Source of the DNA: Verrucomicrobiales bacterium
GTDB taxonomy: Bacteria > Verrucomicrobiota > Verrucomicrobiia > Verrucomicrobiales > DEV007
Length of the DNA: 64,000 nucleotides
Assembly (NCBI GenBank): GCA_002698785.1
Contig: PAAG01000047.1
Coordinates: 434,001-498,000 of the forward strand
Direction of reading: 5' to 3'
Within the stretch, counting starts at the first letter, position 1. The number at the start of each line of letters is the position of its first letter. Below, in pieces: positions 12,107 through 23,176 of the stretch. The position numbers were made by a program, and so were the translations under genes. The notes beneath the pieces are model-generated. The model was not told where the DNA came from. It was given only the letters and a program-made list of their open reading frames with translations, and ran no database searches.

Positions 12107-12258
12107 CATTACAGGTTCATGACGTTGAGATTACAGTTTCATTACGTTTCTTGCCCTCGAATGGATAACGCTCTTCTAGTAGGGCAGTTTTCATCGCCAA
12201 CTTTGCATAGATGAGAGCGACCTTTCGTCAACGATTGCATCCACTTGTTTCCCTATCC

Positions 12259-13650
12259 ATGAAATACCATCCCCTGTACACCCATGTACTGGCCGGCTCC
12301 GCATTGGCCGGTTTCTCACTCGTATCCAACCTACACGCCGATCCGTTTGCGTTCTGGATCGAAGATGAAGAGCTATCTGCATCCAACATCCAGGACGGCG
12401 CTGAATACGGAGGCGCTATCGCCGTAAACGACAGCTATCTACTGATCTCAGCCCGGGAAGAAAACGCCGGAACAATCTCCATCGACGATACCGATACCGA
12501 CGAGGGAGCGGTCTATGTCTATGATCCGAGCACTCTCAACGAACTCTTTGTCCTCCTGGCTGACGATGCGGCCAACGATGATGAATTCGGACGATCTGTC
12601 GGAGTAGACGGCAGTGCTGCCATCGTTGGAGCCTACCAGAAAGACAAGACCGGAACCGATCAAGGCTCGGCCTACCTTTTCGACCTGACTACCGGCAATA
12701 AGACTTTCACACTTGTACCCTCAGTGGAAGAAGATTTCAGCTACTTCGGGTCATCCGTAGATGTCGAAGGCTCCTATGCGATCGTCGGCGCACCCGAAGA
12801 AGATGCAGGAGGAAGCCTGCAGGGCGCAGCGTATGTTTTCAACGTGAGCGACGGGATGGAAGTGTATCGCCTTCTCCCTGACGATCCGGAAGATTTTTCC
12901 CAGTTTGGGTTCAGCGTGGCTATTTCCGGAAACTACGCTCTCGTTGGAGCTCCGCTTCAGGACGAAACCGGATCTGATCGCGGCACTGTTTACGTATTCG
13001 ATCTCACCACGGGAGATCAACTCGGCAAACTGTCCCCTTCTGTCGTGAACAACGATGCCTATTTTGGAGACGCCGTCGCTGCAGACGGTGGGATCGCAGT
13101 TGTCGGAGCAGATTACGAAGACAACGGTGAGAACGAGCAGGGAGCTGCCTACATTTTCGACATCGCCACCCGCATGGAGCTTTTCCGCATAACCGCCGAC
13201 GATGCGCAGGACGAGGATCACTTCGGGTGGACAGTCGGAATCAATGGCGACCAGTGTATCATCGGAGCACCCGATGAGGACAGCAACGGAGGAGAAAGTG
13301 GCGCGGCATACATTTTCGATGTCACCACAGGCGAACAGATTCAAAAAATCACTCCCTCCGACGGTGACGGAAATGATCGCGCCGGTATTGGCGTTGCCAT
13401 AACGGATGACTTTGCCTATTTGGGAGCCGAAGACAAGAACGTTGGAACGATCGTGAGAGGCGCTGCCTATGTCTTCGCAGGAACCGACCTTAACCCCGCA
13501 CTTGTCGCGCTGAGAGCCCAGCTCATCGCTAAGGCGAAGCGCCTCAAGAAGAAGGCTAATCGCTACATCAAGAAGGATAACAGACCCAGGGCGCAGAAAC
13601 TCCGAAAAAGAGCGAAAAAGCTCATCCGGAAAGCGAATTTACTCTACTGA
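12259..13650 (+). CDS. Secreted FG-GAP repeat protein with basic tail
   Basis: 463-residue exported protein. ATG 12259 gives a signal peptide (about 1-27, ending near NLHA). The rest is made of about six to seven FG-GAP_2-like repeats of roughly 55 residues, each with a DD/FG-SV pattern, an A-IVGA strand and a QG-AYVFD strand; together they should close into a beta-propeller, as in integrin alpha chains. The last 45 residues switch to a helix very rich in Lys and Arg (for example KRLKKKANRYIKK), unlike the acidic propeller. Surface display or binding is likely; no enzyme site is seen. The repeats could be anchored or sorted by the tail. Confidence 0.8.
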   Translation: MKYHPLYTHVLAGSALAGFSLVSNLHADPFAFWIEDEELSASNIQDGAEYGGAIAVNDSYLLISAREENAGTISIDDTDTDEGAVYVYDPSTLNELFVLLADDAANDDEFGRSVGVDGSAAIVGAYQKDKTGTDQGSAYLFDLTTGNKTFTLVPSVEEDFSYFGSSVDVEGSYAIVGAPEEDAGGSLQGAAYVFNVSDGMEVYRLLPDDPEDFSQFGFSVAISGNYALVGAPLQDETGSDRGTVYVFDLTTGDQLGKLSPSVVNNDAYFGDAVAADGGIAVVGADYEDNGENEQGAAYIFDIATRMELFRITADDAQDEDHFGWTVGINGDQCIIGAPDEDSNGGESGAAYIFDVTTGEQIQKITPSDGDGNDRAGIGVAITDDFAYLGAEDKNVGTIVRGAAYVFAGTDLNPALVALRAQLIAKAKRLKKKANRYIKKDNRPRAQKLRKRAKKLIRKANLLY

Positions 13651-15201: not shown

Positions 15202-15852
15202 GTGACTACCTTGCCGCACGATAAATCCGGATCCAGCTCAAAGAGTTCTGCCTGGTCTTTGATTCTCGCCAACCTCATTCCCCTGTTTGGGGTGTTCTTC
15301 TGGGATTGGCAAGTATTGGATATCGTGGCCCTTTACTGGGCGGAAAACATCATCATTGGCTTCTACAACGCCCTTCGGATGGCGTGGGTACGTTCCGAAT
15401 CCGGGGCTGGTGCGGAAATGATAGAAAAGATCTTCATGATTCCGTTTTTCGTAGTCCACTACGGCGGGTTCTGCGCCGGACATGGCGTCTTTCTTTTCAC
15501 GCTCCTGGGTAGTCATGCCGGTATAAACGGAATAGAAGGAGTGGTCTGGTTGATCTTTGGCCCTCTGAAATGGCCACTTCTGGCCCTGTTTCTGAGTCAT
15601 GGGTTCTCGTTTTTCTGGAATTTCCTCCACAGGGGCGAATATAGGAAAATCACGCTCTCCAAGCAGATGTTCGCCCCATACTCCCGCATTGTCGCCTTAC
15701 ACATCGCAATTCTGGCAGGTGGAGTCGCTATTCAGGCTGCAGGACAGCCGCTTCTCCTGCTAATCATCCTCGTGATCGGAAAAACGGTCATGGATGTAAA
15801 ATTGCATCTCCGTTCCCATAGGGAGAAGAAGGAGGAAGCAAAAGAAGTGTGA
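15202..15852 (+). CDS. DUF6498-like integral membrane protein
   Basis: 216-residue membrane protein with about five to six TM segments. The start of the mature region ([37 protein letters not shown], about residues 22-58) matches the pattern of DUF6498 proteins, which carry the conserved YWAEN motif in the second helix. No function is known for the family. It begins with a GTG, is divergent from rpmE (136 bases apart), and its 3' end overlaps the convergent three-domain CapA gene by 65 bases. The C-terminal tail is highly charged (REKKEEAKE). Confidence 0.7.
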
Positions 15853-18346
15853 ATTTCCCCTGCGGAATCGTGGGAAATCCCCTTTCATTTAAGCAGACGG
15901 GGATTTCATCGATCGCCAGCACCTTACCTTGTTTCGAAACGATCACGCGAATCGCGAGTCCTTTCTTCCAATCCTCATTCGGACCGTCCTCATCGAAGAC
16001 AAAATTCCCAAGTGAATAGTACACCGGAACACCTTCGATTCGGTCGCTTTTCTGAACACAGTGAGGGCCTGCCCCAACAACAAGATCAGCACCCGCAGCA
16101 GCCATTTCCTTTGCCGCGACAGACTGCGAATCGTCGACTTCGCGCTGGTATTCCGTTCCCCAGTGAGGCATCACGATAACGAAATCTGCCTCACTTTTCG
16201 CTTTTTCGATTTCATCAAAAGAGTCACCCGGTTGCCATCCTATCATAGCCACATTAAACCCCTCGACCTCGATTACAGAGTGATTGTTCTTTGGATGTCC
16301 AAACGCAAGTAGATCCACGCCTCTCAAGTGACGTAAAGTATCCGCAAGAGGCACGTCGCTGGAATGATTATTGGCGAGCGAGATGCAGTCGATTCCGGCA
16401 TCGCTCAAGGATTTCGCCGCAGCGACAGGGGCAGAAAACACGAATGGCTTTCCTTTGGTTGCTTCGACACTACTAACCGAGATTCCACATTCCAAATTCA
16501 CGATAGAGAGATCACTCTCGCCCAAAAGAGATCGCACTCCCTGAAATGGATCCTCATCAGGGAGCGCATCGCCTACCGTTCGAGCCAGCATGGTGTCCCC
16601 GGCTAACACAATCGAAACCGCATCGTCAGGAATCTGCAGTCGGCAATAACGAGGCGCTCTTCGCCCTTCGAGAAGTTGCCCCAGAGAAATCAATTCCGGC
16701 CAAGCTTCCAAATGATGTGCAACGAGATCCTCATCGTTAAACTGACCAATGGGCGGAAGATCCTTCATCAAGACAGCAAGGTGAGTTCCCAGATCTATGA
16801 ACACTCCACGCTTCACATCTTCAGCCGTGAACGCATCGACCTCCTGAGTCAGAGCACGAAACTCTCGAGGGATCTTCCACCCAATATTCCGCTGCGTTCG
16901 TCTCAAGGCATACACAGCAAGGTTCGCGCAATCTCCACCAAGTGCCAAATCGCTACCGGTAAGTCTCCGGCTTGCCAGACGACTCCCGCCAAGAACATAC
17001 GGCAGCTGAAAAGATTCCTGCACAGCACCAAGAAACCCATCGTCCTCCGACACACGAATGACAATCTCCCCCGACGTTCGCCCCCCTGCCTCAGCAACCA
17101 CTCGAATCGTACCCCAGCCCGTCTCGCTGTCGAGAAACGGTCGAAGTTCACTTCCTCTCAGCCAGGGCCTGTCGCCGCCAACAGGTGATCTCTTCCACCG
17201 AATCCATCGGGGAGCATCGCCCGCGAATCGAGTGCCGCTGCCCAGTAAGTTGTAAACCTCTTCTTCGCTGGATAGCACATACCAGGAAATGCTCTCTTCA
17301 GGCTGAAAACCTCTCAAGCGAACTTCCCACCCCTCATCCTTCCTGACACGAACACACCCATCGTCATCCCTCCGGTGCTCCGGGACATGTACTTCGGGAG
17401 AACGCCATCCAGAAATCACTTCTCTCACAACCTCCTCTTCCCTCTCAAAACGGATCTTTTCCTGATTGGCATGAACGAGACTCCGCAACGACTCCGAGGA
17501 ATTTCGCCACTCGAAAAAGGGAATCTCCTGCCCAGCCCTGAGCAACTCCTTCGCTTTTCTCGATCTGTCAGGCCCCGTTCTCTCCATCGGTTCCCATCGC
17601 ACTCTCGCGTTAGCGACGTACAGGGAATTCTTGAGAAACAACTCGACCAGGTGATCCGCCTGCTCCTGGGACTTCAAATACGGAGTCGAGATTGCAGCAG
17701 TGATCGCCCTCAGGCCATCGTGTTCAAAAATCTCATTCCAGACGCGACCAAACGCTTCCCCCAAATCACTCGAGGAACACTCAGCGAAGTAATCCAGATC
17801 CAGAGAAACAACGAAAGGCCCTTCAACCTCCAGTTGATCCAAAGTCACCACCTCAAACCGTCCATCGAGCGAGTCGCGCTTCCTCGGCATCGCCGCATCA
17901 TGCGCATGGATCTCCCGCGCGATTTCCGCTCGACATTTCTCCAAATCAAACTCATCAGGTGCCACCCATATCACCTTGTGAAAAGGCTTTGGCATGAGCG
18001 GCTCGATCCAGTCAAAGCACTGCACCAGTCCTCGCTCCCGCCATTTTCTCAGCAGCTCAGGTCGATCCCGCGTATCCCTGATAGCGCGATAGGCAGCATC
18101 AGAATCAAACAACTGGCTGGCATCACTGTGCGCGTCAAAGAGCACCAGAGTCACCTCCTCATTGAGAGGCAAGTTCTCCGCGAACCAATAGAAACTCCCG
18201 GCGTGAGAGTCCTCCAGATAGATCGGAAGATGTGCAGGCTCTAACGAAAATCCATTTACCAGGGCAAAGCACGCGCCAGCAAAGACCGCCCTAACGAGCC
18301 CCCTGAATCTCCGGCTTCTTATCGAGTTCATTGATGAGGGCGACAT
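15788..18346 (-). CDS. Exported UPF0489/arginase-like + amidase-like + CapA-domain protein
   Basis: 852-residue protein combining three parts behind an N-terminal signal segment (about 11-34). Residues about 40-260 resemble UPF0489, an arginase-like (ureohydrolase) family: DAHSD at 71-75 and SLDLDYF at 181-187 fit the two Mn-binding motifs. Residues about 440-550 hold GGDCANLAVYALRR (470-483) and GTHLAVLMK (520-528), a Cys/His pair like that of papain-fold amidases. Residues 576-815 are a CapA/PgsA-type metallophosphatase: LAGDTML (581-587), LANNHSSD (657-664), MPHWGTEY (726-733), SLGNFVFD (778-785). The upstream DUF4424-like gene overlaps its start by 56 bases. A role in modifying or hydrolysing a surface peptide or glycan is inferred only. 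Confidence 0.7.
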   Translation of the reverse strand: MSPSSMNSIRSRRFRGLVRAVFAGACFALVNGFSLEPAHLPIYLEDSHAGSFYWFAENLPLNEEVTLVLFDAHSDASQLFDSDAAYRAIRDTRDRPELLRKWRERGLVQCFDWIEPLMPKPFHKVIWVAPDEFDLEKCRAEIAREIHAHDAAMPRKRDSLDGRFEVVTLDQLEVEGPFVVSLDLDYFAECSSSDLGEAFGRVWNEIFEHDGLRAITAAISTPYLKSQEQADHLVELFLKNSLYVANARVRWEPMERTGPDRSRKAKELLRAGQEIPFFEWRNSSESLRSLVHANQEKIRFEREEEVVREVISGWRSPEVHVPEHRRDDDGCVRVRKDEGWEVRLRGFQPEESISWYVLSSEEEVYNLLGSGTRFAGDAPRWIRWKRSPVGGDRPWLRGSELRPFLDSETGWGTIRVVAEAGGRTSGEIVIRVSEDDGFLGAVQESFQLPYVLGGSRLASRRLTGSDLALGGDCANLAVYALRRTQRNIGWKIPREFRALTQEVDAFTAEDVKRGVFIDLGTHLAVLMKDLPPIGQFNDEDLVAHHLEAWPELISLGQLLEGRRAPRYCRLQIPDDAVSIVLAGDTMLARTVGDALPDEDPFQGVRSLLGESDLSIVNLECGISVSSVEATKGKPFVFSAPVAAAKSLSDAGIDCISLANNHSSDVPLADTLRHLRGVDLLAFGHPKNNHSVIEVEGFNVAMIGWQPGDSFDEIEKAKSEADFVIVMPHWGTEYQREVDDSQSVAAKEMAAAGADLVVGAGPHCVQKSDRIEGVPVYYSLGNFVFDEDGPNEDWKKGLAIRVIVSKQGKVLAIDEIPVCLNERGFPTIPQGKFTLLLLPPSSPYGNGDAILHP

Positions 18347-19616
18347 ACGAAATTGCCGTGTCGCGATACTTCTCTCCTCGATGCACCCCGGCGATCTCCA
18401 ACTTCACTTTCGACACCGGCATATCGTAATCCGGCACCACAATCTCTTCCGAATTCGGTGTCTTAAAATCAGGAATATCCACCGTGAAGGTCTTTTCCCC
18501 ATTCAATGTAATCTTCAACTTCGAGACACGATTGTTAGCGATCCAGGCTTCTTCGGATTTGGAATACCCCGGACTCACTGCAATGCGATGCAGCGGCTTC
18601 GGATCTGCCACCGAAATAGTGAGCGACTCACCGACCCCATCACCATCGACACCTTCCACCCAGGCCTTCTCATCCCACAGCATACGAACATTCCCAGCCA
18701 CATAGCTATTCTCCTTCTGATCAGGAAGCTCGGAACTCGCCGTTACTTCGTAATTGTTTGTCTCGAAAAAATACTGATTCGCCCTCAACTCATACGCCGA
18801 CACCACATCGTCCGCACTGAACCTCCAGAACTTCTTGCTCGGCTGGTACACCTCGATCACAAGGTCATCCGCCGGTCCCGGTTCCAGATTGGAAAACTCC
18901 CAGACATACTCATTCCCCGTGCGAGTAAATCGATCTTCCGGCGCTTTAATCGAAAACTCTTCTGGGAAAAGCGTTTTCACTATCAAACGCACCGTCCCCT
19001 TCCCAATCGGCCCTTTCCACGCCGCAGCACTGGACAGCGTATAGGAAAACGAAGTCTTATCATAGTGGACATCATCCGAGACATCCCAGCCTTCCACCGC
19101 ATACGGCATCGAAAAGCGAACTTCCACCTCACTCGTCTCGTCCGCACCAAAGTCTAATGTCGACACCTGCCAGCTTTCCACCCACGTCACATACTCCTCG
19201 ATGTCTGCATCAACCTGCGGAGTCGGCGCTTTGGCATTTTCTTCGATCTCTTCGCTGGCTACCTTCTTTCCACCTTTCGTGATCGTGTAATCTTCCAGGC
19301 TCAGCGTCGGATAGGAAAAATCGATCCCCTCTTCTTCCTTCCACTCCAGTCGTGTGCAGGGAAAACCAATTCCCACACTTCTCGCCGGCCCCTCGTTCCG
19401 GATCGAATAGGTCACCTTCACTTCAGCAGAAGACTTTCCAAACACTATGGTCAGATCTTCAGAGAGCATTTCCAGGTCTTCAATCCCTCGCGGACTGAAG
19501 TTTCCGGTCCATCCCACAAAATCTTGAAAACCACCTCCGTTACCTCGCGCCTCGCCCGAGAGTAGAATCGCAACTGCCGAAACAAGACAAGCGAGAGAAA
19601 GAGAACTTCTTTTCAT
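18291..19616 (-). CDS. Exported DUF4424-like protein with discoidin-type domain
   Basis: 441-residue secreted protein. ATG 19616 gives a signal peptide (MKRSSLSLACLVSAVAILL, cleavage near EARG). The first 260 residues look like DUF4424: an NGGGF start, then MLSEDLTIVF and immunoglobulin-like strands. Residues about 295-430 resemble the NADase-type glycan-binding (discoidin) domain: EVTASSELP, an AWVEGVDGDGVGESLT block, and the ANNRVSKLKITLNG block. Known members of that domain sit in exported or surface proteins and bind sugars. It overlaps the three-domain arginase-like/CapA gene by 56 bases, so the two exported proteins are probably made together. The family call is from memory of motifs. 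Confidence 0.65.
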   Translation of the reverse strand: MKRSSLSLACLVSAVAILLSGEARGNGGGFQDFVGWTGNFSPRGIEDLEMLSEDLTIVFGKSSAEVKVTYSIRNEGPARSVGIGFPCTRLEWKEEEGIDFSYPTLSLEDYTITKGGKKVASEEIEENAKAPTPQVDADIEEYVTWVESWQVSTLDFGADETSEVEVRFSMPYAVEGWDVSDDVHYDKTSFSYTLSSAAAWKGPIGKGTVRLIVKTLFPEEFSIKAPEDRFTRTGNEYVWEFSNLEPGPADDLVIEVYQPSKKFWRFSADDVVSAYELRANQYFFETNNYEVTASSELPDQKENSYVAGNVRMLWDEKAWVEGVDGDGVGESLTISVADPKPLHRIAVSPGYSKSEEAWIANNRVSKLKITLNGEKTFTVDIPDFKTPNSEEIVVPDYDMPVSKVKLEIAGVHRGEKYRDTAISYVALINELDKKPEIQGAR

Positions 19617-19693
19617 GCGAACGAACCTTGCCACGAAGCGGGAAAAGAATCAATTTCAGACAGGAACCGATTTTCAAACACTTCTCGTTCCCA

Positions 19694-20443
19694 ATGCCTT
19701 TTCTTCGATCCGCAGAATGTGCCACACCGGGCACCGCCGAATTTCCTTTTTCCATCCCGGCGGTGAGCGCCCTGGCGTCGAGCCCGATGAAACTCAACCG
19801 CGGGCTCACCTTCCTCGTCGGAGAGAATGGTTCGGGAAAATCAACCATCCTGGAAGGAATCGCCGACAAACATGGCTTCACTCGTGAAGGTGGCCCACGT
19901 ACCAAAAACCTGGTTCAAAAAGATTATTGGTCGGATCTGGGAGGCTACATCACGCTTCAACGCAGTCCGGGAATCAATCCAATGGACGGCTTTTTCCTCC
20001 GATCCGAGAGCTTTTTCAATTTCGCGACGGTGCTCGATGAACTGGAAAGCGAGTTTCCTAGTAAGTTACCCTATTTCTCATACGGAGGAAAATCTCTGCA
20101 TGTACAATCGCACGGAGAATCGTTTCTCTCATTGTTCCTCAACCGCTTCGGCGAGCACGGCCTCTACATCCTCGACGAACCGGAGGCCGCTCTTTCACCC
20201 AGCCGCCAACTGGCACTCATGGTTCGGATACACGATCTTATCGAGGCGCATTGCCAGTTCATCATTGCAACGCACTCGCCCATCCTTCTCGGGTTCCCCG
20301 GTGCCACCATTTATCAACTGGACGAAGACGGCCTGGAAGAAGTCAGCTACGAAGAAACATCCCCCTATCAAATCACCCAGCAGTTTTTGAAAGATCGCGA
20401 AAGAATGCTGGGATTCCTGTTTTCCGAAGAGGACTTCGACTAA
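19694..20443 (+). CDS. AAA family ATPase, COG3910 type
   Basis: 249-residue soluble ATPase of the SMC/RecF/ABC-like class. Walker A GENGSGKST is at about 43-51, an ABC-type signature region (SHGESFLSLF) lies near 140, and Walker B LYILDEPEAAL follows about 15 residues later, then an ATHSPIL switch segment near 195. There is no coiled-coil insertion and no membrane segment, which fits the single-domain predicted-ATPase group COG3910. ATG 19694 is used; the upstream part of the frame is unlike the family and overlaps the divergent neighbour's start. Its role is unknown. It converges on the nuclease-ligase gene with nine bases between them. Confidence 0.8.
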   Translation: MPFLRSAECATPGTAEFPFSIPAVSALASSPMKLNRGLTFLVGENGSGKSTILEGIADKHGFTREGGPRTKNLVQKDYWSDLGGYITLQRSPGINPMDGFFLRSESFFNFATVLDELESEFPSKLPYFSYGGKSLHVQSHGESFLSLFLNRFGEHGLYILDEPEAALSPSRQLALMVRIHDLIEAHCQFIIATHSPILLGFPGATIYQLDEDGLEEVSYEETSPYQITQQFLKDRERMLGFLFSEEDFD

Positions 20444-20452
20444 CAAACCGCT

Positions 20453-23176
20453 TTATACCCCCGCCAGCTTTCTTGCATACGAAAGCAAATCAATGTCATC
20501 GATGGTCTTATCCCTCCGGATCGCCTTGATCCGCGGAAAACGCATTGCCAACCCGGAGTCATGCCGTTTGCTCGGATTGATCGAATCAAAAGCGATCTCC
20601 AGCACCACATCGGGCTCCACCGTGTGCACCCCTCGACTCTTCTCAATCGTCCGTTCTTTGAAATGCTCTGTTAGCCCCTCGATCTCTTCATCAGTCAGTC
20701 CCGAATAGGCCTTACCAATCACACGCAGCGCATTGGTCTCCTCATCACGAACCGAAAAAGTATAATCGCTCAGCACATGGGATCGCTTGCCGTGTCCCTG
20801 CTGCGCCTTCACCACGACCACATCCAGCGTCGGCATGGCCTTCTTCAGCTTGAGCCATTGCTTCCCACGTCGCCCGGGCAAGTACCGACTTGCCGGATCC
20901 TTTGCGATCAGCCCCTCATTTTCCCGTCGCCGTGCTTCATTAAATGCCTCATCGACCTCACCAGAACCAGTCGCAAAATAGACATCGCAACGCGCTATCG
21001 ACTCATTCACATCCAGCGATTCAAGAGCCTCTCTCCTTTCCTTCAGCGGCTTGGACAGATAACCATCCCCATCCAGTCCCAGCAGATCAAACGCGACAAA
21101 CCTCACTGGCACGGCTTCGCCGAAAAAGAGATCGCCCTGCCGGTGTCGTTGATCTTTTCGCCCCAATCGCTTTTGCAGATCAAAGAACGTCAGCTTCTTC
21201 CCCTCCGCATAGGCGATGATCTCCCCATCCAGAATCACATCGTGCTCCAGCAATAGCGCCGGTTCGATCAGTTCAGGGAATTCCTCCTGCAGCGGCCGAA
21301 GATCCCGCGAATAAATCTCCACCCGATCTCCCCTTCGATGAAGCTGCGCTCGTATCCCGTCGAATTTATCCTCCAGCCAGATCGGCTGATCTTCTCCGCC
21401 GAGCCGCTCCACGATGTCCTCCGCCGTCTCTTCCGGACTCGCCAACATCACTTTCAGAGGAGTAAACCACGTCGCCTCCGCTTCATCCAACCGAGCCTCT
21501 TTCGCGAGAACCGCCGTGCGCCCGATCTCTCCGGTCAGCATGTGAGCCTCTCTCACTTTCGAAACATTCTGACCAAACGCCTCAGCAATCGCTTCCTCCA
21601 AAAGCCCCTCTTTCAATCCAATCCGCAAATCCCCAGTCAAAATACCGACCAACAGTGCCGCCTCACTGTGGTGAAACTGCCCCATGGCATCCCGCAAAAG
21701 GGCAATTTTCTCGCTCTGCCCCTTCGCCACAGCCAGATCGGAGAAAAACTGCCCTACCTCTTCTATCGCATGGGGCTGCGGATCCGTTTTCCCTTTCAAA
21801 ATCAAATAGGTCGTCCGCGCCGCATCCGCCTGCGAGGACGAGATCTGCCGATACTGAGTCAAAGTCATTCCAGATAGATCGAGCAATGCCTGTCGAATAA
21901 CCGCCCACCCGACATTGGCAGCCCTCACATTCCCCGTTCGGGAAAAGGCTTTTCCGCTCAAGAATGTCGACACTCGATCCAGCATCTCCAGATCGAGCCC
22001 TTTCAAATACCCGGCAAGAATTTCCCGTTTCTTCAGCTTTCCCGTCACCGCAGCCACTTGCTCACAGACTTCCGTAAAAGTAGCAAACTCCGACTCCGGT
22101 CGCGGATCTCTCCCCTCCTCAGTCTTCACTCCAGCCGCCACCGTTCCTGGCAGCTCGAGTTCCAGCTGGATCTCCGCCTCCAGGGGCCAGGCCTCAATCC
22201 CTCGATCTCTCAGGTCTCGGGCAAACTCCTCCCGATATCCATGGATCGTGTAGACCTGTTTCGGATTCACCTCATCCACAAACGTATGTAAATCATCGTA
22301 CCCCGCGTGATCGGAGAGAGGAAAAACCTCGTCACACTGATAGCGATACTTCGCACTCGAATCCATCCCCCATCCACTGACCATCGCCAGTCGCACACTC
22401 TTCCGCATCCTTCGCACAGCCCGGCTGCGAGCCGCGGTCGGAGGAAGAATCACCACTTTTCCAGCAGCCGTCCGCTCCCCTGGTTCGAACTCCCCGCATT
22501 CCGGCAACGCATATCCCAGCGAAGCCACCGCCTCATTCATCCTTGCGACAGACGAATGCACCTGAAAAGCCAACTCCGGCGCTCGCTCATGCAGCGAGAG
22601 CAGAATCTCCTGAGCCTTTCCCAGCGAATACGCCATGAAAATAGGGATCTCCCCATCCTCAATCGCCTCGACCGCATACTTCGCCATGGCATCCAGAACC
22701 TCACCTGAAGGCGGAAATCGAAACTTCGGAATCCCGAACGTCGTCTCCATGATCAACGTATCCGCCTGCCGAGGTTCGTTTCTCTCCGCCCCGAGCGCCG
22801 GACGCGTCTTGAAATCCCCCGTGTGGAGCAGCGATCTCCCATCACCGCGCTCAAGATGGAGCATCGCAGACCCCGGAATGTGCCCCGCAGGCAACATGGT
22901 GCACGAATACCCCTCACCCAACTCAACCCTCACCCCGAACTTCAGACTCAGAAACTCCGTTTCATTAGAGCCAAAACGCGCCTCCACCAGCTTACGCGTC
23001 TCCTCAGAACACAGTATTCTGCCGTGAGGAGCGAAATGATCCGCGTGAGCATGAGAGACAAAAGCAAAATCCCGAGGCCGATGCGGATCGAGCCACAAAC
23101 CGAGATCGGGCAGCAAAAGGTCGCCCGATTCCAACTGAATCGAAATCTCGTCAGACACTGGAGATATTTGGCCCAT
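20453..23176 (-). CDS. Fusion of ligase-associated MBL exonuclease and ATP-dependent DNA ligase
   Basis: 907 residues with two catalytic halves. Residues 1 to about 345 are a metallo-beta-lactamase fold nuclease of the ligase-associated DNA exonuclease type: SHAHADH at 41-47, HTGDFKT at 118-124, and C-terminal TIHGY at 310-314. Residues about 365-907 are an ATP-dependent DNA ligase: catalytic Lys604 in EDKFDGIR, DGEIIAY (650-656), EGLIAKD (754-760) and LKLKKAM (775-781, motif V). In many bacteria these are separate neighbouring genes, together with an Lhr-like helicase and PdeM phosphoesterase; here they form one chain and no helicase is next to it. A role in repairing damaged DNA ends is inferred from those systems. 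Confidence 0.88.
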   Translation of the reverse strand: MGQISPVSDEISIQLESGDLLLPDLGLWLDPHRPRDFAFVSHAHADHFAPHGRILCSEETRKLVEARFGSNETEFLSLKFGVRVELGEGYSCTMLPAGHIPGSAMLHLERGDGRSLLHTGDFKTRPALGAERNEPRQADTLIMETTFGIPKFRFPPSGEVLDAMAKYAVEAIEDGEIPIFMAYSLGKAQEILLSLHERAPELAFQVHSSVARMNEAVASLGYALPECGEFEPGERTAAGKVVILPPTAARSRAVRRMRKSVRLAMVSGWGMDSSAKYRYQCDEVFPLSDHAGYDDLHTFVDEVNPKQVYTIHGYREEFARDLRDRGIEAWPLEAEIQLELELPGTVAAGVKTEEGRDPRPESEFATFTEVCEQVAAVTGKLKKREILAGYLKGLDLEMLDRVSTFLSGKAFSRTGNVRAANVGWAVIRQALLDLSGMTLTQYRQISSSQADAARTTYLILKGKTDPQPHAIEEVGQFFSDLAVAKGQSEKIALLRDAMGQFHHSEAALLVGILTGDLRIGLKEGLLEEAIAEAFGQNVSKVREAHMLTGEIGRTAVLAKEARLDEAEATWFTPLKVMLASPEETAEDIVERLGGEDQPIWLEDKFDGIRAQLHRRGDRVEIYSRDLRPLQEEFPELIEPALLLEHDVILDGEIIAYAEGKKLTFFDLQKRLGRKDQRHRQGDLFFGEAVPVRFVAFDLLGLDGDGYLSKPLKERREALESLDVNESIARCDVYFATGSGEVDEAFNEARRRENEGLIAKDPASRYLPGRRGKQWLKLKKAMPTLDVVVVKAQQGHGKRSHVLSDYTFSVRDEETNALRVIGKAYSGLTDEEIEGLTEHFKERTIEKSRGVHTVEPDVVLEIAFDSINPSKRHDSGLAMRFPRIKAIRRDKTIDDIDLLSYARKLAGV

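Follow-up and report, generated by a model that had tools for sequence, protein, structure and literature searches.

Enzymes of the NlpC/P60 type cleave peptidoglycan, and CapA/PgsA functions in capsules of poly-glutamate. Peptide arginases have been characterised in papers on the pathways of ribosomally synthesized and post-translationally modified peptides (RiPPs). The di-metal ligands of one of them, OspR (PDB entry 8BRP), have been identified (PMC10028609), and an arginine near the C-terminus of a precursor peptide is a known substrate of these enzymes (PMC12703449). MslH is a metal-dependent epimerase of the C-terminal tryptophan of a lasso precursor (PMC10406935). Domains resembling these enzymes were found joined in a single exported protein, P0001, encoded in a 64,000-nucleotide stretch of a Verrucomicrobiales bacterium (GenBank assembly GCA_002698785.1, contig PAAG01000047.1, positions 434,001 to 498,000 of the forward strand; this whole stretch is called the window, and positions are counted from its first letter). 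Immediately upstream lies the gene of a second exported protein, P0002, which belongs to a family of obligate partners of the enzyme and ends in a near-invariant arginine. It is tentatively proposed, at somewhat less than an even chance, that P0001 and P0002 form an exported protein-modification cassette in which the arginase domain converts the C-terminal arginine of the partner, with the remaining domains processing that end as well.

The open reading frame (ORF) of P0001, the second gene of the cassette, runs from 18346 down to 15788 on the minus strand and codes for an exported-type protein of 852 residues. A sequence-only reading of the window had called this ORF, and about 30 homologues (28–36% identity) that align with it end to end show that it is real. 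The signal segment named in the same reading was recovered as a hydrophobic leader in 29 of the 30 aligned homologues, the remaining one being truncated. The features of both genes are as follows.

15788 to 18346, minus strand: coding sequence of the three-domain protein P0001 (ORF call and full-length homologues)
18230 to 18346, minus strand: signal segment, residues 1–39 (hydrophobic 10-mer in the homologues; helix 4–32 in the model)
17447 to 18241, minus strand: peptide-arginase-fold domain, residues 36–300
18203 to 18205, minus strand: predicted metal ligand H48 (OspR H12)
18122 to 18136, minus strand: predicted metal ligands D71, H73 and D75 in DAHSD (OspR D39, H41 and D43)
17792 to 17800, minus strand: predicted metal ligands D183 and D185 in LDLDYF (OspR D165 and D167)
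17042 to 17446, minus strand: linker and mostly beta region, residues 301–435 (secondary structure of the full-length model)
16661 to 17041, minus strand: NlpC/P60-like cysteine domain, residues 436–562
15854 to 16633, minus strand: CapA/MslH-like metal-dependent domain, residues 572–831
18291 to 19634, minus strand: partner P0002, 447 residues, exported, with a DUF4424 and an NADase-type glycan-binding discoidin domain
18291 to 18346, minus strand: 56-nucleotide overlap of the P0002 and P0001 genes (from the gene coordinates)
18294 to 18326, minus strand: tail LDKKPEIQGAR of the partner
18294 to 18296, minus strand: codon CGT of the terminal Arg447 of P0002

The N-terminal domain was modelled alone with AlphaFold2 (predicted local distance difference test 84, predicted template modelling score 0.86). 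The model matched OspR with a Z-score of 15.2 and a root-mean-square deviation of 3.5 Å over 200 residues, and its matches to arginases, agmatinase and formiminoglutamase (Z 8–9) were clearly below this. A plain Foldseek search with the domain alone gave weak results, with 8BRP at an E-value of 0.004 and a probability of 1.00. When a profile of 28 N-terminal domains was searched against the whole PDB (E ≤ 10), 8BRP was the sole match (E 0.0019). The family UPF0489 (PF12640) was matched by 17 of these 28 members at E-values up to 1 (best 7e-5); the domain of P0001 itself scored 12.8 bits, below the Pfam gathering cut-off of 27. An hhalign comparison with UPF0489 proteins of the same phylum scored 36.3, and 20 column-shuffled versions reached at most 17.7.

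The six di-manganese ligands of the peptide arginases have counterparts in the same order in P0001, including the DxHxD and LDxDYF motifs. Conservation was counted in an alignment of 30 P0001 homologues: H48 is kept in 29 of 29, and D71, H73, D75, D183 and D185 in 30 of 30. The modelled fold of the domain is that of a ureohydrolase of the peptide-arginase type, and by alignment the DxHxD aspartates are predicted metal ligands. The relationship to UPF0489 and the peptide arginases suggested by the sequence-only reading is thus borne out; the motifs on which it drew, DAHSD (71–75) and SLDLDYF (181–187), are where it placed them, and the domain did not model as another fold, which that reading had named as a refutation together with aspartates lying outside a metal site. 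As the fold is common to arginase, agmatinase and formiminoglutamase, the domain could also serve as a periplasmic nitrogen scavenger that hydrolyses free compounds with a guanidino or formimino group, such as arginine, agmatine or peptides. This is considered very unlikely, because the peptide arginase is by far the closest structure and because a fixed pairing with one partner would be unexpected of a scavenger.

This pairing is close. A tblastn search showed that the partner adjoins nearly every relative of P0001 for which flanking DNA was available, including one in a spirochaete. Each full-length partner detected came from a genome that carries the enzyme family as well, and none was found in 33 genomes of other phyla. 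In the flanks of 12 loci that were compared, the enzyme and its partner are the sole genes in common. P0002 carries a leader segment, and both its DUF4424 domain (PF14415) and its NADase-type glycan-binding domain (PF25302/NF047619) score above the cut-off. It thus resembles other proteins with these domains, but adds a short tail with a near-invariant terminal arginine that is mostly absent from discoidin-only relatives.

Among the distinct partner C-termini, 41 of 44 end in arginine, each in the form P-x(2-7)-R-end, even though identity of the partners to P0002 is just 24–37%. The exceptions are the partners of G848 and G703 and one of two copies in G512. As background, C-termini were taken from the window and flanks, where arginine is the last residue for 8 of 116 other genes. 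The corresponding binomial value of 2.6e-44 ignores relatedness and is not a probability, the partner counts not being independent. That the arginine is a general trait of discoidin proteins was ruled out: only 7 of 43 discoidin-only relatives end in it, several of these being close copies of the Akkermansia group, and the three paralogues in the genome of P0002 itself end in H, N and E. It was also considered whether the ATGA overlap or the codon context forces this residue. However, this overlap occurs in only 15 of 56 rows, all six arginine codons are used (CGT 14, CGC 9, AGA 8, CGA 8, AGG 6, CGG 5), all three stop codons occur, and the spacing between partner and enzyme genes ranges from the 56-nucleotide overlap to a gap of 12 nucleotides. 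Therefore, selection acts on the amino acid. The sequence-only reading, whose account did not include the upstream gene and its C-terminal arginine, had proposed a surface peptide or polymer as the substrate; the terminal arginine of the partner is a more specific candidate.

Tandem partner genes were seen in three genomes. In G101 and G021 all of them end in arginine. In G512, which is of the same class (locus L122, 8723–11368, minus strand), the two tandem genes adjoin an enzyme gene with a broken frame between its NlpC-like part and its CapA part; one of the two partners ends in GAR. A different discoidin protein of about 470–540 residues, ending in ILKPIVK/R/Q, was observed in the g19 genomes of the same order (L209–L220), most of which have no match to the enzyme family. 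The 3' end of a spirochaete copy (L041) runs antisense into ftsK, so its true end is uncertain.

The tail L.K.P...R is missing in both operons that lack the arginase domain. In G703, where the enzyme consists of the NlpC-like part only, the partner has no tail and ends in ...LIILK; in G834, which also has an NlpC-like-only enzyme, the partly sequenced partner has no tail and ends in ...IFNCF. This co-occurrence is suggestive of a link between domain and tail. Within the families to which G703 and G834 belong, no further operons without the arginase domain were found.

Several observations weigh against the proposed conversion of the partner's arginine. The correlation between domain and tail is based on just two operons without the domain, both from spirochaetes, and the sequences compared are related to one another. 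In the spirochaete G848 the arginase domain is intact, but the partner has the arginine in register followed by GSGPWQP, and one of the two partner copies of G512, adjoining the frame-broken enzyme gene, ends in RK. The two-domain forms of the enzyme do without CapA. Within the arginase domain, the position of OspR Glu11, the proposed stabiliser of the guanidinium group, is occupied by Ser or Asn (S/N/D) in the P0001 family, and the preceding residue is always Asp or Glu. The peptide-arginase motif EEH(N/H)EAF, with a glutamate beside the ligand histidine, is not matched by the family, which has (E/A)(D/E)(S/N)HA(G/E) instead.

The loss of this glutamate would be compatible with a domain that binds without catalysis. 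It might be a vestigial dock that holds the C-terminal arginine of the partner and so joins both secreted proteins, the chemistry being left to the NlpC-like domain; the arginine tail and its link with the domain would fit binding equally well as catalysis. On the other hand, the six metal ligands are invariant in 29 to 30 homologues from two phyla and would be needless in a mere binding pocket. A non-catalytic dock is judged unlikely. On the simplest reading, the arginase-fold domain handles the C-terminal arginine of the partner. Conversion of arginine to ornithine is the reaction of the closest relative of the domain, and P0001 may carry it out; a pure binding role is possible.

A Pfam scan of P0001 detected CapA (PF09587) alone, and in a Foldseek search with the full-length model mainly CapA matches filled the list, with no NlpC structure among them, an absence that counts neither for nor against that fold. 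The middle domain is part of this model, which is confident as a whole. Residues 436–562 contain PY(V/L)xG and DCAN with C473, followed by H522 and H544; C473, H522 and H544 are invariant in 30 of 30 homologues, as is D540. The profile NLPC_P60 (PF00877) was matched by 6 of 30 members (best 2.3e-5), P0001 itself being unmatched, and Amidase_6 by 4 of 30. In hhalign against NlpC/P60 proteins of relatives a score of 49.3 was obtained, compared with at most 20.5 after shuffling, over an aligned stretch that covers the Cys half only. Judged from these profiles and motifs, the middle domain is probably NlpC/P60-like. It shares with this family the YxFG...DC(A/S) pattern and the downstream and second histidines in the expected order, but it has DCAN for DCSG, a long insert and weak individual scores. 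A papain-like domain had been expected here from the sequence-only reading. Of the Cys/His pair that it named, H522 holds, whereas position 472 is an aspartate and the catalytic cysteine of DCANL is C473.

In the C-terminal domain, all four CapA motifs noted earlier are present (LAGD 581–584, NNH 659–661, PHWG 727–730 and SLGNF 778–782), and PF09587 matches P0001 with an E-value of 2.5e-49 and a score of 168.5 bits (cut-off 27). The residues D584, E619, N660, H661, D664, H728 and E732 are invariant where present. The closest solved structure is MslH (8GQ9, Z 28), and the whole domain matches the CapA/PGA_cap family. Seven of the eight catalytic and metal residues of MslH are kept (the equivalents of D11, E44, N87, H88, D91, H259 and H295), but the equivalent of its metal ligand H261 is an invariant glycine (G730). 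Unlike MslH, the domain is the C-terminal part of an exported fusion, and the MslH model NF038314 scores 38.8 bits on P0001, far below its cut-off of 700.

The activities of NlpC/P60 and CapA/PgsA enzymes on peptidoglycan and poly-glutamate capsules raise the question whether all three domains act on a peptide of the wall or capsule, with the partner merely targeting the enzyme to glycan. The glycan-binding-type domain of the partner and the leader segments of both proteins would agree with such remodelling. However, it leaves unexplained both the terminal arginine of the partner and the disappearance of this residue in operons that have no arginase domain, and no capsule or wall gene is common to the compared loci. 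No capB or capC neighbours, as in a capBCA/pgsBCA operon, were seen, and there is no third gene in common among the 12 loci. Remodelling of a surface polymer is regarded as possible, though rather improbable.

In the proposed modification cassette, P0002 would present a short C-terminal tail with a free arginine. The di-metal arginase-fold domain would bind this residue and hydrolyse its guanidino group, yielding ornithine and urea. The thiol domain of the NlpC/P60-like type might then process the same end by trimming, by ligation to an amine or acyl group of the cell wall, or by epimerisation, and in Verrucomicrobiota the CapA/MslH-like domain may also act there, which is plausible because MslH acts on a C-terminal residue. 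The scheme supposes that the arginase domain is active, that the terminal arginine is its substrate, and an order and chemistry for the other two domains. A further version, held to be distinctly unlikely, is that the new amine of ornithine would be used by the NlpC-like domain to attach the partner covalently to the cell wall or a surface molecule, while CapA would epimerise or trim the tail; such ornithine would be the counterpart of the C-terminal lysine of Braun's lipoprotein. The cassette also differs from the OspR-type peptide arginases in that its arginase domain is exported and fused to two further domains, and is paired with a large secreted protein instead of a RiPP precursor. No RiPP gene cluster was seen around the enzyme, the DUF4424-discoidin gene alone being common to the 12 compared loci.

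The fusion is a recurrent family. Among 289 genomes of the same order, 35 were found to encode a nearly full-length relative (E < 1e-60); this rules out a unique oddity or an assembly artefact and corrects the earlier impression of a singular combination. The residues H48, D71, H73, D75, D183 and D185 and the residues C473, H522, D540 and H544 are invariant where present. In spirochaetes, two cassettes (L127 and L128) encode a two-domain enzyme without CapA, and two further loci (L129 and L130) an NlpC-like-only enzyme in which the position of H522 is a glutamine. A role in anti-phage defence was considered, and neither P0001 nor P0002 was matched by PADLOC. In the open-licence papers that were searched, neither the fusion nor the cassette turned up. 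The component domains are already known; what would be new among peptide arginases, as far as these papers show, is their exported fusion together with the obligate partner and the arginine tail.

Around the cassette, a DUF6498 membrane protein gene (15202–15852, plus strand) is convergent with the P0001 gene and overlaps its 3' end. On the other side lie a small AAA ATPase of 271 residues (19628–20443, plus strand), weakly similar to defence ATPases of the PtuA/AriA/Mad3 type, and an ORF of 907 residues (20453–23176, minus strand) in which a ligase-associated exonuclease is fused to an ATP-dependent DNA ligase. Two separate NCBIfam models match the latter ORF, with a TIGR04122-like metallo-beta-lactamase/beta-CASP part at residues 19–335 and the DNA ligase at residues 366–904. 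A further protein, encoded at 12211–13650 (plus strand), contains seven FG-GAP repeats and ends in a very basic tail.

If the proposal is true, P0001 would be an exported peptide arginase that acts on the C-terminal end of a full-size protein from the neighbouring gene, and the conversion of arginine to ornithine would be a protein modification with a nameable substrate. It would, in addition, point to a role for the proteins that carry DUF4424 and glycan-binding domains.
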